Part shown: in pieces, positions 22,261-62,578 of the stretch | Position numbering within the stretch: the first letter of the stretch is position 1 | Layout: each line of letters begins with the position of its first letter | Origin: Erysipelothrix anatis | GTDB taxonomy: Bacteria > Bacillota_I > Bacilli_A > Erysipelotrichales > Erysipelotrichaceae | Assembly (NCBI RefSeq): GCF_009828745.1 | Contig: NZ_WTSX01000006.1 | Location: 62,001-126,000 of the forward strand | Direction of reading: 5' to 3' | DNA length: 64,000 nucleotides | The notes under the pieces: model-generated | Told to the model about the DNA's origin: nothing | Seen by the model: only the letters and a program-made list of their open reading frames with translations | Databases searched by the model: none | Made by a program: the position numbers and the translations under genes

Positions 22261-23304
22261 TTATTCTTCGTTGTCTTTGTTCCAGAATATTTTACGGTTA
22301 TAGTATTGGCTTGTTTCACCCAAGGCAGTAAAGATTGGATCATGACCAATAGTTTCTGTCAGAGTAGGAACGCCTGAACTTAAGTCAGTTGCGATACCTA
22401 GTTTTGATCCTTCAATTTCTACACCAATAGCCGATAGAACAGTTGGGAAAATATCTGTAGCATTAAATCCTCGATTCCGAGTGATGCTCGGATCCAACTC
22501 ATCCCATACTGGATTGATAATCATATTGAATGTCGTACGTTCGTAATTCGGATCAATCGTTGTAAAGTATGTCTTATCCATGCTTAAGTGGTCCCCATTA
22601 ACGACGATTGTTGTGTTTTCGTAGAAGTCTTGAGCTTTAATCCAATCAATGAAATCTGCAACAATGCGTTCGTCACATGTGATTGAATTTTCATAAGGAT
22701 GAATTGATGGTGCATCACAGAGTTCATCAACATAACCATCTGGGAAGTGCGTATCGACTGTCTCTACAACTGCATGGAATGGTTGATCTCCGGCACTCAT
22801 CTCAAGAATTGATTCTTTTGCGAATTCTAACATGGTACGATCTTCAATTCCGAATTGACCTTTAAAGTACTCATGTGATGATTGGCCAGTTTCGATGTAA
22901 TGGAGACGATCGTAAATATCATAGTTACCATGTTGTTCGTAGAAGCTCTTGACACCATAGTCTGAACTTCTTGCACCGACTATAAGTCGATTGTGATATC
23001 CGTTCGCATAAAGGATATCACCAAGGTTTGTTAGTCCAGGCATGTAGTTTTCGACAGTTCCATCTTCATGTGATGTTGGTGGCCAAACGTATGGAATTCC
23101 ACTCGTTTGGGTTACCATGCCTCCAATAGACCATGTTGCCCCAGGAACAGTACGGATTCCACCATAAGTCGATTGATGTGAAAAGTTTACAGCTTCCCCA
23201 TCATCAAGGTATTTTGTCAGTGACGGAATAAGGTTTTGCTCCATCGCTCCACCGTTTGCTTTATCAAAGTATGTTGCTTCTAACGATTCAAAGAAAATAA
23301 TGAG
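22261..23304 (-). pseudogene. MdoB/LtaS-like phosphoglycerol transferase remnant B (catalytic domain, N-terminus lost)
   Basis: The frame is open from about 23304 and reads LIIFFESLEATYFD, then a full extracellular sulfatase-fold catalytic domain: TVPGATWSIGGM, DTHFPDGYVDE, VVNGDHLSMDK and FNATDIFPTVL. The nucleophile region ESLEATY matches the MdoB/OpgB type. The membrane domain is missing, so the product could not be placed or exported. Reinitiation at an internal ATG (23244) would cut off the nucleophile region. It is about 60% similar by eye to remnant A over the shared ~110 residues, so it derives from a neighbouring paralogue, not from the same gene. Confidence 0.75.
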
Positions 23305-24389
23305 GCATTCGCTCCTGCAATCAGTCGTTGACGGTAACCTTGTTCGTGAAGAATGTCACCAAGATTTACCATTCCTGGTAAAAACGATTCAACATAGCCA
23401 TCCTCACGTTCTCCTGGAGGTTTCTTATAAGGAATCCCAGACATCTGTGTTGACATTCCTGCAATTGACCATGTTGCGCCAGGGACATTTTGAATTCCAC
23501 CATAAGGCGCATCTGTATTTGAAAAATTAACAGCTCCGCCTTCCAAATAACGTGTTAGATTTGGAATCATATTCACATCATGATTTCCCCCACGTTCTTT
23601 ATCAAGATATGTTGTTTCCAATGATTCAACGAAAATATAGATTAGATTTCGTTTCTTTTCTGGAAACTGTAGGTTTGCATCATGCGGATTCACATAGTGA
23701 TCCTCAAAGAATGTATCGTTCGACAATGCATAACTAATAATTTGCGGTACATATAACGCTTGAGATGATAATGATACCACTAAGACCGCAATTACGGCGA
23801 CACTCATTCGATTTGTGAAACGAAGCCATAATGGTGTGTTACGGCGTGATTTCCAACGAATTGGATTAACGAAATCTTTTGAGTAAGCGATTGTAAAGAA
23901 GCCAAAGAAGATGGCAACGAAGTTGCTACCAAGACCAACTATGTCATTTACAAACGTTCCCGTTTGTGTGTTAATTGGTGAAATTAGATTATTGAGCACA
24001 ATATCAAAGGTTAGTGTTCCCATTGTACTTAGAATCCATAGAATATAAATAATCATAAATAACAAGATACTGAGTATACTTGCGGTGTAAAACCGGTAGA
24101 TTCTGATTGTATAATTGTTTTTCTTCATCATTCGAATAATCAAATATGATGCTAAAACAGCTACTAGAGCAATACCAATATGTAATGCATAGAATCGTGG
24201 ATTGCGATTGACATGACCAATTACTGATTTACCGCGCATGATCCAGTTCACTGCATTGCCGATTGTTACCGTTAATAACATGGCTAGCGCTGCTACATCT
24301 CGAACCTTCATGGTTTGTCGTGTTGCTTTAACTAGAATCCATGCTCCTAGAAGCGGAAACAGAAGTATAAGACTTACATTAAATAGCAT
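23280..24389 (-). pseudogene. MdoB/LtaS-like phosphoglycerol transferase remnant A (membrane domain and start of catalytic domain)
   Basis: 369 residues: about five N-terminal membrane helices, then RNLIYIFVESLETTYLDKERGG (nucleophile Thr region) and the catalytic domain up to RLIAGANAS, where the frame leaves the homology and stops 8 codons later. The last ~210 residues with the metal-binding D-H motif are gone. Start is the ATG behind GAGGG; the upstream ATG is less likely. Directly after the break, remnant B begins in another frame. Intact enzymes of this kind transfer phosphoglycerol or similar groups to surface glycans, which fits the locus. Confidence 0.75.
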
Positions 24390-24462
24390 ATTAATTCCCT
24401 CACTCAATGCTTTTATGATATCACTTTCAGTTAACAAAACAATAACATTTCGTGATTTTCGT

Positions 24463-44557: not shown

Positions 44558-44646
44558 ACCGGTTCTCCTTTATCTACTCCTATCTTACGCACTTTTAAAC
44601 TTAACTCCCATCGAATTCCAGAACATCTGACTTACAATATTGTCAC

Positions 44647-44680
44647 AAAAAAAAGAAACGACCGTGTCATTTCTTTTTCT
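44647..44680 (-). terminator. Intrinsic terminator after the DhaL-like gene
   Basis: Minus strand GAAATGAC-ACG-GTCGTTTC (one T-G pair) followed by eight T. Confidence 0.78.
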
Positions 44681-44697
44681 CATCAATTTAGAACAAC

Positions 44698-45222
44698 TCA
44701 CTCACCAAACACATTAAGCCAGGCTTGAAACAACAAGTACGATGAAAATGCCCCTGGATCTGCTGAATTCGCAATTGTGATGATTTGTTCCTCTAATTTA
44801 TGTTTCTTAGGAATCGCGACTTCTAAAACATCGCTGTCCGCAAAGTGCTGCCACACTTTAAGCATCGGATGGTCACGAGGTGTCTGTCCACGTTTCGCGA
44901 TCGCCTCATACCCTGTGTGAAACATCACATTTGAAGGATCAAAAGTATGCAATGCCATGGAATTAAATGCTGCTCCATACAAGGGACCACACGCCCCCTC
45001 TAACTTCGCAAGCAGGGTCAAACCGACTTGTTTCATAAATTGCGAAGGGTCGGAATATGGACGCCGCTCCATCATTTCTAAAACAGCCTTTGACCCCTGT
45101 ACGATATTAGTGCCATGATCACCATCACCGCTCATTGTATCATAGTGATTTAAAAGTTCTTCGTTATCTTGAATCAATGCATTAAATTCTTGAATCCATA
45201 GTTCGTACTGCTCTAATTTCAT
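44698..45222 (-). CDS. DhaL-like protein (ADP-binding subunit of dihydroxyacetone kinase), shortened
   Basis: 174 residues against about 200-210 for DhaL. The Mg-ADP-binding aspartates are kept (DTMSGDGDHG, Asp28, 33 and 35), and GACGPLYGAAF follows. The lid segment seen in DhaL as a basic Ala-Arg-Lys-Gly-Arg-Ala-Ser-Tyr stretch before DPGA is missing; here IANSADPGAFSS joins directly. DhaK and DhaM partners are not in the window. It sits 61 nt behind the glycerol-kinase-like gene, likely co-transcribed. It may bind ADP without working as a normal phosphotransferase subunit. Confidence 0.75.
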   Translation of the reverse strand: MKLEQYELWIQEFNALIQDNEELLNHYDTMSGDGDHGTNIVQGSKAVLEMMERRPYSDPSQFMKQVGLTLLAKLEGACGPLYGAAFNSMALHTFDPSNVMFHTGYEAIAKRGQTPRDHPMLKVWQHFADSDVLEVAIPKKHKLEEQIITIANSADPGAFSSYLLFQAWLNVFGE

Positions 45223-45283: not shown

Positions 45284-46801
45284 TTATACCGCAACTGAAT
45301 CATATTCTGTTGTACTTTGCCTTCTACATGCTATACTCGTAGACCTTACAACCGCTTGATGCCATCCATTTATCATCACTTTGCGCGTTTCTAAAGATAT
45401 TTCAGGGTGCCACTCTGTGTTTGTTACGGGTTGGTTTTGTGCGCGAATATCATCACCAAACACCCCAGTAGCAAAACCCGCTAAGAAAGCCACCCCTACT
45501 GCAATCGCCAAATCCTGGTCAATACATCTAATTTTCGTGCCTGTTAGATTTGCTAGTAATTGCATAAGAAAACTATTAGTAGTCATTTGTGAACTTACAT
45601 TTAGTGTTGTCAAAGCGCCACCCCAATCAGTTTCCATTCCCTGAATAATATCGTAGGACTGGTACGCAATTGATTCGAGTGCTGCCCGAATAATATGCTC
45701 TCGTTTAGATGCACGGGTTAATCCCAAAATATTTGCTCGAACTGGTCGATTATAACCAATCTGTAGCGCGTTGGTCTGTTTTGGAATCACATAAATACCG
45801 AGCGTATCTTCTACTTTCGTGGCAAAAAATTCTAAATCATCAGTTTTTTGAATAATCCCCAAATCTTGATGTAACCAATGATTAACAACGGTGTCTGGGA
45901 CGGTAGTTCCTTCCAATGCATAGTGAACTTGGTTATTGATACCCATCGCTATTGTTGTATTTAATCCATGATTGCTGCGAATTTGCTTTAATCCTGTATT
46001 CAGTATTAGGGAATTCCCTGAGTTATATGTATAACTGTTACTTGATCCTAAAAATGTTTGCCCAAGCAAAGCAGCTTGGTCGTTACCTATGATTCCAGTA
46101 ATTGGAATTGACGTGTTTTGGATCGTGGCATACCCATACATATCTGAACTATTTTTGACATCTGGAAGCATTTTACGGGGAATATCAAATAATTGAAGTA
46201 ATGCATCGTCCCATGCACGTGATGTAATGTTAAATAGCATAGTGCGGGCTGCATTAGTTACATCTGTGACATGTATTTTTTCATGCGTTAGCTTATAGAC
46301 CAGCCACGTATCAACTGTACCAAACAACAACTCTCCTTTTTCAGCACGCAGACGCGCTCCTGGAACATTATCCAATATCCATTTAATTTTTGATGCAGCA
46401 TAAAGACTGTCAGCAAATAAACCTGTTGACTCGTAAATGTCTTTCAAGTTATTTTTTTTGAGCCGATGTAAAAAAACGTGTGATGTTGAGTCATCGGTTG
46501 AAACAATTGCGTTGTATATAGGGACCCCGGTTTTTTTGTCCCAAACAAGTATCGTCTCTCTTTGATTTGCGATTCCAATTGCCTCTATAGACTTTATATC
46601 GATGCCCTGAGTCAAAACATCCTTTAACGCTTGCATCTGCGAATCCCAAATTGCTTCTGGACTGAGTTCAACCCTGTACAGATGAGAATAGATTGGTGAT
46701 ATTTCAACAGATGCAGTTGCCACAATCTCTTTGTTTTGATCAACAACAACCGCTCGCGAATATGTTAGTTCATGATGTAATACAACAATGTTTCGTTCCA
46801 T
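45284..46801 (-). CDS. Glycerol-kinase-like protein (FGGY family) with altered active site
   Basis: 505 residues aligning by eye along all of GlpK: NQRETILVWDK (79-89), ELLFGTVDTWLVYKLT, HVTDVTNAARTMLFNI. However the key motifs are changed: the N-terminal phosphate loop DxGTTSSR reads HHELTYSR (9-16), the glycerol-site WQCRRT reads STDDST (101-106), the catalytic Asp of GDQQAAL is Asn240 (GNDQAAL), and the ATP-site GTG reads NSG (260-262). Such a protein is unlikely to phosphorylate glycerol by the known mechanism. It may be a regulator or use another substrate. Coupled in a unit with a DhaL-like protein. Confidence 0.85.
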   Translation of the reverse strand: MERNIVVLHHELTYSRAVVVDQNKEIVATASVEISPIYSHLYRVELSPEAIWDSQMQALKDVLTQGIDIKSIEAIGIANQRETILVWDKKTGVPIYNAIVSTDDSTSHVFLHRLKKNNLKDIYESTGLFADSLYAASKIKWILDNVPGARLRAEKGELLFGTVDTWLVYKLTHEKIHVTDVTNAARTMLFNITSRAWDDALLQLFDIPRKMLPDVKNSSDMYGYATIQNTSIPITGIIGNDQAALLGQTFLGSSNSYTYNSGNSLILNTGLKQIRSNHGLNTTIAMGINNQVHYALEGTTVPDTVVNHWLHQDLGIIQKTDDLEFFATKVEDTLGIYVIPKQTNALQIGYNRPVRANILGLTRASKREHIIRAALESIAYQSYDIIQGMETDWGGALTTLNVSSQMTTNSFLMQLLANLTGTKIRCIDQDLAIAVGVAFLAGFATGVFGDDIRAQNQPVTNTEWHPEISLETRKVMINGWHQAVVRSTSIACRRQSTTEYDSVAV

Positions 46802-46884
46802 AAATCTCCTTTGTTTTATTAATACGATAAGGTAATTTGTTCAGAAGGTTTCATCAAAGTATTATGCATGTCTATCAGTGTAAA

Positions 46885-46898
46885 TGATAGCGCTTCCT
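46885..46898. promoter_or_regulatory. Candidate cre (CcpA) site
   Basis: TGATAGCGCTTCCT matches the cre pattern TGWAANCGNTNNCA at most positions, about 85 nt before the GlpK-like start. Fits carbon catabolite control of a glycerol-type gene; binding is inferred only. Confidence 0.35.
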
Positions 46899-47032
46899 TG
46901 TTGCCTCATAGTATCATAAATAAGGCATTTGTTTGTGATAGAAGATTTATTCACATAAACTTTACAAAACTATCACATTTATAAAAAACTACATTTTAAA
47001 ATCATTTTTGATCCTTATATTTATAAAAACAG

Positions 47033-47058
47033 GCAAAGAAAAGGATGCTTGCGCACCC
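47033..47058 (-). terminator. Intrinsic terminator after brnQ
   Basis: Minus strand GGGTGC-GCAA-GCATCC, a GNRA tetraloop hairpin with one G-U pair in RNA, followed by TTTTCTTT. Confidence 0.65.
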
Positions 47059-60929: not shown

Positions 60930-60949
60930 AGTACAAAATAAAGCGTTGA

Positions 60950-61196
60950 CGAGGATATGTTTCGTTGGGAACTGCTATTAGCGAGATGACAGATGGTGAA
61001 AGGTCATTAAGTAAGCCCACTGTAAATAACCCCTTTGAGCAATTTTCCTGAACGTTGAACTAGGGAAAATCGGGTGTAGTCCGTTATCTTACTACACGAT
61101 TTGATAGAATCGTAAAGTGATCATAATTATGATAATTTGGGTGGTACCGCGGAACACAGCATTTCGTCCCTTTGGGATATAATGCTGTTTTTTTAT
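60950..61196 (+). ncRNA. T-box riboswitch for asnS
   Basis: Stem I region (60950-61090) with GCGAGATGACAGATGGTGAAAGGTC typical of T-box distal parts. The T-box itself TGGGTGGTACCGCGG is at 61138-61152, followed by the terminator. Candidate specifier codon AAC (Asn) at 61028-61030. Uncharged tRNA-Asn would pair with the specifier and the TGGN bulge and stabilise the antiterminator, switching on asnS. Confidence 0.93.
61156..61194 (+). terminator. T-box-controlled terminator
   Basis: ACAGCATT...AATGCTGT stem with an inner GTCCC-TTT-GGGAT hairpin and a T-run; competes with the T-box antiterminator. Confidence 0.88.
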
Positions 61197-61213
61197 ACCA
61201 AGGAGGACCTAAG

Positions 61214-62578
61214 ATGTCATTACATTCACTTAAATCACTACATACTTTAGAACATGGGACACCTGTTCACGTTGCGGGATGGGTGCGTACAACACGCCAA
61301 TCTCGCTCTATTCTCTTTATCGAAATCCATGATGGATCACAGTTTGCAACGACTCAATGTGTCATCGATGCAGATCATTCACAGTATTCTGTAATTTCCA
61401 AGCTTACAATTGGGAGCAGTGTTCGAATCCATGGTCAATTGAAAACTGGGCTTACAGGCAAACATAAACATGAAATTGCAATTGACACCATTATCGTTGA
61501 AGGCATGGCTGACAGTGATTATCCATTGCAAAAGAAACGTCACAGTTTTGAGTTTCTCCGAACGATTCCACATCTTCGCCCACGATCTAACACTTTTTAT
61601 GCTGTATTTAAGACTCGTTCAATCCTTACACAAGGGATGCACAAATACTTAGAATCTCAAGATGTCACTTATATACAAGCACCGGCAATCACGACGACTG
61701 ATGCTGAAGGTGGTGGAGATGTTTTCCGAATCAGTACCTTAGACCCTACACAACCTCATCAAGACTTTAAAGACGATATTTTTAAACAAGAAGCATTTTT
61801 AAACGTCACAGGCCAAATTCACATTGAACCATTCATCCAAGCATTTCAAAGAGTATATACTTTTGGACCATCATTTCGTGCAGAGAAGTCAAATACATCT
61901 CGACATGTATCTGAATTTTGGCAGGTGGAACCTGAGTTGGCTTACGTTGATCTTGTGGGATTAATGGACTTCATTGAATCAATGTCTAACGCAATGATTC
62001 AATATGTTCTTGATCATGCCTCAGAAGAACTGGCTTTCTTTGACGAATTCATCGAGAAAGGGCTTATCAAAAAATTACAACAAACAGTATCTGAACCCTA
62101 CGGACGAATTTCGTACTCACAAGCAATCCAGTTACTTGTTGATACAGATCATGCTTTTACAGTCAATCCAACTTGGGAAACCGGGCTCCAAAGTGAACAT
62201 GAACATTATTTAACCGATGTTATCTTTAAAAAGCCTGTATTCGTTACAGATTATCCAAAAGATCAAAAAGCCTTTTATATGAAACTCAACGACGATCAAG
62301 TTACAGTTGCAGCCACTGACCTACTTTTCCCTAAAATTGGAGAAATAGTAGGCGCTAGCGAACGTGAGACACGTCTTGACGTGTTGCAAGAGCGTATCAA
62401 AGCCCATGACCTAGATGAACAGTTGTACACATGGTACCTTGACACACGCCGTTACGGGACAGTTGAGCACAGTGGGTTTGGACTTGGAATCGAACGTTTT
62501 ATGCGTTACATCACCGGGATGGACAACATTCGTGATGTAATTCCCTATCCACGAACACCGGGTTCTGCAGATTTCTAA
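61214..62578 (+). CDS. asnS: Asparaginyl-tRNA synthetase
   Basis: 454 residues, class II synthetase. N-terminal OB-fold anticodon-binding domain (VHVAGWVRTTRQSRSILFIEIHDGS), then LQKKRHSFEFLRTIPHLRPR, FTFGPSFRAEKSNTSRH (motif 2, FRAE), and GFGLGIERFMRYITG (motif 3). The linking motif and YPLQKK pattern separate it from AspS. Start chosen behind AAGGAGG; a longer frame would begin inside the T-box terminator. Controlled by the T-box above. Confidence 0.95.
   Translation: MSLHSLKSLHTLEHGTPVHVAGWVRTTRQSRSILFIEIHDGSQFATTQCVIDADHSQYSVISKLTIGSSVRIHGQLKTGLTGKHKHEIAIDTIIVEGMADSDYPLQKKRHSFEFLRTIPHLRPRSNTFYAVFKTRSILTQGMHKYLESQDVTYIQAPAITTTDAEGGGDVFRISTLDPTQPHQDFKDDIFKQEAFLNVTGQIHIEPFIQAFQRVYTFGPSFRAEKSNTSRHVSEFWQVEPELAYVDLVGLMDFIESMSNAMIQYVLDHASEELAFFDEFIEKGLIKKLQQTVSEPYGRISYSQAIQLLVDTDHAFTVNPTWETGLQSEHEHYLTDVIFKKPVFVTDYPKDQKAFYMKLNDDQVTVAATDLLFPKIGEIVGASERETRLDVLQERIKAHDLDEQLYTWYLDTRRYGTVEHSGFGLGIERFMRYITGMDNIRDVIPYPRTPGSADF

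Follow-up and report, generated by a model that had tools for sequence, protein, structure and literature searches.

Which function, if any, is left to a glycerol kinase homologue when most of the residues that would make it a kinase have been replaced and its reading frame is complete? This question is raised by a gene of Erysipelothrix anatis that lies in a window of 64,000 nucleotides (the whole stretch of DNA analysed here, positions 62,001 to 126,000 of contig NZ_WTSX01000006.1 in assembly GCF_009828745.1) and runs from window position 46801 to 45284 on the minus strand. We call its product pseudo-GlpK. The reading that we favour, with a probability of about 0.6, is that a duplicate of glpK has lost catalysis and is kept as a non-catalytic binding protein, probably together with a DhaL-like protein that lacks its lid loop and is encoded by the next gene.

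Identity and Predicted Fold

The open reading frame is intact over 505 codons and preceded by a ribosome site of the AGGAG type, so that the original prediction of a complete frame holds. Pfam recognises both domains of the FGGY fold (FGGY_N with 197 bits and FGGY_C with 72 bits). The glycerol kinase models of NCBIfam align over nearly their whole length, yet with scores below their curated cut-offs: 488.5 bits against 498 for the GlpK subfamily model NF000756, and 455.8 bits against 590.35 for TIGR01311. The closest real GlpKs are 43-46% identical to pseudo-GlpK, and its best solved relatives, structures of the E. coli glycerol kinase, cover residues 3-487. A normal GlpK is encoded on a different contig of the same genome, which settles the earlier question whether a second, normal glpK exists.

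Structure prediction, proposed with the original prediction as a check, gives the intact fold of a glycerol kinase. The AlphaFold model, built with 41 aligned sequences, has a mean predicted local distance difference test (pLDDT) score of 84.2 and a predicted template modelling score of 0.85; pLDDT falls below 50 only at residues 254-256, at 347-351 and in the C-terminal tail, and the nearest known structures are glycerol kinases (Z 48.7, root-mean-square deviation 2.2 over 482 residues). Because the input alignment held mostly normal GlpKs, the model is biased towards the GlpK fold.

Replacements in the Active Site

The extent of the replacements is seen when pseudo-GlpK is aligned with 109 normal GlpKs, taken from relatives and from a wide bacterial set, among which 127 columns are near-invariant, i.e., at least 97% invariant. 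Pseudo-GlpK keeps 85 of these residues and has changed 42, as compared with 8 changes in the most aberrant of the 109 normal enzymes and none in the GlpK of the same genome. In E. coli numbering, which is our own mapping from the alignments, the losses include D10, G12, T13, W103, Q104, R106, Y135, D245, Q246, G266, F270 and G310, together with the GLGAP loop and the DGGA loop (the adenine motif). The equivalents of R17, R83 and E84 are kept, the last two as R81 and E82.

All four replacements reported in the original prediction are found in this alignment: HHELTYSR takes the place of D-x-G-T-T-S-S-R at residues 9-16, STDDST that of the glycerol-site WQCRRT at residues 101-106, Asn240 that of the catalytic Asp245, and NSG that of the ATP-site GTG at residues 260-262. 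To these are added the exchanges of Y135 for L133, F270 for S264 and G310 for T304, and the rewriting of two more loops, from PAFTGLGAP to PKQTNALQI (GLGAP to LQI) and from VDGGA to VSSQM. The accompanying claim, that the changes hit active-site loops only, is right for the main part of them and too strict for the rest, since a few changed columns, P39 and L443 among them, and the variable last 50 residues are found outside these loops.

The glycerol site has retained its Arg83 and Glu84 despite its other changes. The published substrate signature of GlpK consists of Arg83, Glu84, Tyr135, Asp245 and Phe270 (PMC3245297), and two of these five are present in pseudo-GlpK (R81, E82), the other three being L133, N240 and S264. 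These kept residues, with the equivalent of R17 and a score that falls just short of the GlpK subfamily cut-off, would speak for a protein that is still a glycerol kinase, only with an atypical active site; such an enzyme would, however, have to work with D10, D245, T13, G266 and the DGGA adenine motif all replaced, the lost D245 being itself part of the substrate signature, and it would do so in a cell that also has a normal GlpK. We regard this alternative as extremely improbable, and by its sequence pseudo-GlpK very probably has no kinase activity. Homology to an enzyme, loss of essential catalytic residues and an intact predicted fold are here combined, as is characteristic of a pseudoenzyme.

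Dead second copies of GlpK might be common in other genera, and this idea is rejected: in 22 further sequences of the GlpK family, second copies from other genera included, D245 is always kept, as is D10 in every sequence with its N-terminus present. One other genus (G013, L167:1123-2586) has a divergent second glycerol-kinase-like gene of the FGGY family, with the motifs IDQSTQSTK and GDSHAA; it adjoins a transketolase-like gene and retains the catalytic Asps.

Distribution, Selection and Origin

An intact orthologue with 86% identity occurs in a single other genome, G007. The two genomes have the same gene order around it over about 17 kb, both proteins have N240 and H9 in place of the catalytic Asp245 and the Mg-site Asp10, and 32 of the 42 changes at near-invariant columns are common to both. 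An error of sequencing or of frame is ruled out as the source of the changes, because the orthologue comes from a separate assembly and has the same changes in frame. The substitutions are seen again in the one further genome where the gene was detected, and the gene is unbroken in this close relative. The other 11 genomes of the genus lack it, as do the 272 genomes searched in the family and 395 genomes of the class, the last being a sample in which rare relatives may be missed. No further relative of more than 46% identity is found in the genus (13 genomes), the family or the class sample, nor among the matches listed in a scan of GTDB contigs, from which the nearest genomes may be left out.

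Comparison of the two orthologues gives a ratio of nonsynonymous to synonymous substitution rates (dN/dS) of 0.237 (bootstrap 0.169-0.323), with 90 synonymous changes and neither stops nor insertions or deletions over 505 codons. At a synonymous divergence (dS) of 0.31, with 0.047 as the nonsense fraction, we estimate that a gene free of selection would have gathered about 20 stops. The DhaL-like gene likewise has no stops, insertions or deletions and a dN/dS of 0.311 (0.165-0.614), and the spacer between the two genes differs by 10 bases in length. On the evidence of this genome pair, pseudo-GlpK as a whole is constrained by purifying selection. The original claim of selection rather than decay is supported by a dN/dS well below 1 and by a frame that is unbroken in G007. 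Since the intact orthologue shares most of the changes, with a dN/dS of 0.24 and no stops or indels, the gene appears to be a retained pseudoenzyme and not a fresh wreck.

In a phylogenetic tree, the two pseudo-GlpKs share a stem 2.3 changes per site long, from which tips of 0.1 each arise, and they group with the GlpKs of their own genus (in a set of 14 rows) with a Shimodaira-Hasegawa-like approximate likelihood ratio support of 96%; a branch as long as this stem can be misplaced. The long stem, the short tips and this grouping fit a history of duplication within the lineage and a burst of change, followed by slower evolution. Comparison with an "empty site" does not give the ancestral arrangement: sbcD stands in different surroundings in the other genomes of the genus. 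The normal glpK of the two genomes (G000:C27, L147:5159-6652, in the source genome; G007:C14, L146:2929-4419) has a dS of about 2.0, and because this far exceeds the values of 0.2-0.57 for its flanking genes, the comparison suggests that one of the two lineages acquired its present glpK allele by recombination.

The same numbers can be read in another way. If catalysis was lost early in a duplicate that is slowly dying, the apparent constraint could be residual selection against toxic misfolding, or too little time may have passed for the frame to break. It would fit such a gene that the dN/dS values of pseudo-GlpK and of the DhaL-like gene exceed those of their neighbours (brnQ 0.09, yxeA 0.015, sbcC 0.19), that dN in the C-terminal 50 residues of pseudo-GlpK is about double that of the remainder, and that the gene occurs in two genomes only. 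However, the long shared stem would place the catalytic losses well before the split between the two genomes, and both frames are intact; the expected stops are missing, and the upstream region, the ribosome sites and the terminator are conserved. A dying duplicate is for these reasons unlikely.

The DhaL-Like Neighbour and the Two-Gene Unit

The DhaL-like gene starts 61 bases downstream of pseudo-GlpK. Its product scores 90 bits with TIGR02365, for which the cut-off is 138, and its predicted structure matches the DhaL proteins of L. lactis and E. coli. The Mg-binding motif DGDHG, invariant in the alignment, is kept. The lid loop GRASYLGERSIGH, of the form GRAS(Y/F)xG(E/D)RSIGH before DPG, is missing in both genomes; all eight other DhaLs in the alignment have it in some form, with minor variation. 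In DhaL this loop closes over the nucleotide. Searches of both genomes find neither a match to DhaK (PF02733) nor a MIP-family glycerol facilitator, and no orthologue of the DhaL-like gene is found beyond G007. The pairing with a lid-less DhaL and the restriction to two genomes are additions to the original account. In a further genome (G012, L144:29-7518), a brnQ-like gene and a normal dhaKLM cluster are only a few kb apart, a proximity also seen for the DhaL-like gene here; it may be a remnant of an older dha locus or a coincidence.

Together the two genes make up a compact unit whose upstream region, ribosome sites and terminator are conserved between the genomes (Table 1). From the layout of two genes between hairpins, it is probable that they share a transcript. 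The terminator behind the DhaL-like gene is strong, with a predicted folding energy of -16.9 kcal/mol (z -4.1). No Rfam element is found in the 5' region, which contains a candidate catabolite-repression site resembling a catabolite-responsive element (cre), a kind of match expected about 0.7 times per window by chance. Beside it, at 46873-46893, is a short inverted repeat, CTATC..GATAG, which reads CTACC..GGTAG in G007, with both arms changed in match; it is a possible operator or hairpin.

Table 1. Coordinates of the two-gene unit and its signals in the window
Feature	Position	Strand	Description
Pseudo-glycerol kinase	45284..46801	-	505 aa; FGGY fold; ATP, Mg and most glycerol-site motifs replaced
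Orphan DhaL-like protein	44698..45222	-	174 aa; DGDHG kept, lid loop gone
Intrinsic terminator after DhaL-like gene	44642..44683	-	Long hairpin and T run; conserved in G007
5' region of two-gene unit	46802..47040	-	Conserved in patches between the source genome and G007
cre-like site TGATAGCGCTTCCT	46885..46898	+	About 84 bp upstream of pseudo-GlpK start; TGGTAGCGCTTTCT in G007
Terminator-like hairpin after brnQ	47043..47058	-	Separates brnQ from two-gene unit

Elsewhere in the window, two adjacent sulfatase/lipoteichoic-acid-synthase-like reading frames (22261-24437, minus strand), which have similar content at the end of the one and at the start of the other (NVPGATWSIAGM...GIPY), look like a partial tandem duplication with truncation. 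A T-box leader (60937-61174, plus strand, 119 bits) lies directly upstream of an asparaginyl-tRNA-synthetase-like gene (61172-62578).

What the Pair May Do

Both proteins have lost the parts that handle ATP and both are under purifying selection, and binding is for this reason the simplest job that remains. The favoured sequence of events is that glpK was duplicated in this lineage, that the copy lost catalysis, and that it was retained as a pseudoenzyme that binds. It would share its transcript with a DhaL-like subunit that has neither lid loop nor DhaK partner; the two would act jointly through protein contacts, the likeliest role being that of a regulator or scaffold in glycerol or triose metabolism. 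The parts of this reading are not equally firm. Pseudo-GlpK probably functions by binding, and the balance tips slightly towards joint action with the DhaL-like protein. A role in the control of glycerol or triose use, suggested by analogy, is a tentative assignment.

The segments of pseudo-GlpK that best match the normal GlpK of its own genome are 361-390 and 141-175. The former, by our mapping, overlaps or adjoins the dimer strand described in the C-terminal domain of the fungal glycerol kinase of Chaetomium (PMC7765489), which suggests that dimerisation may survive. That pseudo-GlpK uses this surface to pair with the normal GlpK is nevertheless rather unlikely. Doubtful, too, is the more specific proposal of a new sensory or regulatory complex, in which two dead kinase scaffolds would control glycerol or triose use, pseudo-GlpK possibly pairing with the real GlpK and the lid-less DhaL being its partner.

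Several observations weigh against a retained binding pair. The dN/dS of pseudo-GlpK is higher than that of any neighbour measured, i.e., the constraint is weaker than in neighbouring genes, and the new role is in this respect what we infer; selection is judged from one comparison, since only two closely related genomes carry the gene. The replaced loops are 85% conserved and the rest of the protein 86%; the constraint applies to the protein as a whole and does not single out the new loops as its functional part. Co-function with the DhaL-like gene has adjacency and parallel loss as its basis, and no regulator gene adjoins the unit.

The loops also bear on whether pseudo-GlpK has become an enzyme with new chemistry, its rewritten cleft taking another substrate or catalysing a reaction other than that of a kinase, the DhaL-like protein perhaps serving as a subunit. 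They are full-length, polar and largely common to both genomes (STDDxT, HHELTxSR, VSSxM), the substrate site retains R81 and E82, and the gene is under purifying selection, all of which speaks for this alternative. But pseudo-GlpK has lost the phosphate and adenine motifs, no other known catalytic motif can be recognised in it, part of a rewritten loop (347-351) is predicted with low confidence, and the loops have diverged no more slowly than the average. New chemistry is accordingly an improbable alternative, still less likely than a dying duplicate.

Precedents and Significance

A binding role for pseudo-GlpK and its partner has precedents. That inactive glycerol kinase paralogues exist in mammals is already known: the sperm proteins Gykl1/Gk2 have no detectable activity in vitro and have been proposed to be adapters (PMC5566117), although a later review calls GK2 active (PMC12467085), so that its status is disputed. 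One of the structure matches, PDB 7nie, is a glycerol kinase-like array on mitochondrial channels. The likeness is that of non-catalytic glycerol kinase paralogues, as proposed here, but the mammalian proteins are mitochondrial and of separate origin, and pseudo-GlpK is bacterial with nearly its whole active site rewritten. With GlpK itself (TIGR01311, PF00370/PF02782), pseudo-GlpK has in common its fold, its length, R83/E84 and the segment near the dimer surface; it differs in lacking Asp245, Asp10, Tyr135, Phe270, WQCRR, GTG, GLGAP and DGGA.

In enterobacteria, DhaL reportedly activates the regulator DhaR through contact (PMC12821955), and this is a precedent for a non-catalytic role of the DhaL-like protein, which has the helical fold and metal motif of DhaL. 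It differs from DhaL in its missing lid, in the lack of a DhaK in the genome and in that no DhaR-type gene is seen adjoining. The DhaL-DhaR contact and the Gykl1/Gk2 adapters are the reason why a regulatory or scaffolding pair is favoured.

DhaQ of Lactococcus lactis is likewise a paralogue of a dihydroxyacetone kinase subunit that works with a regulator rather than catalysing; it derives from DhaK, and from neither DhaL nor GlpK. No paper on a bacterial FGGY pseudokinase was found in the open-access literature searched, nor was a bacterial GlpK with a nearly wholly rewritten active site together with a lid-less DhaL.

Routine annotation would probably label such a gene "glycerol kinase", and for this reason pseudoenzymes in bacterial central metabolism are easy to miss; the case is also a warning not to count pseudo-GlpK as glpK in metabolic models. 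If the pair is functional, it would be a compact natural experiment on the way in which a metabolic kinase turns into a binding protein, with the dead copy, its dead partner and the intact enzyme all in one genome, and a close relative for comparison.
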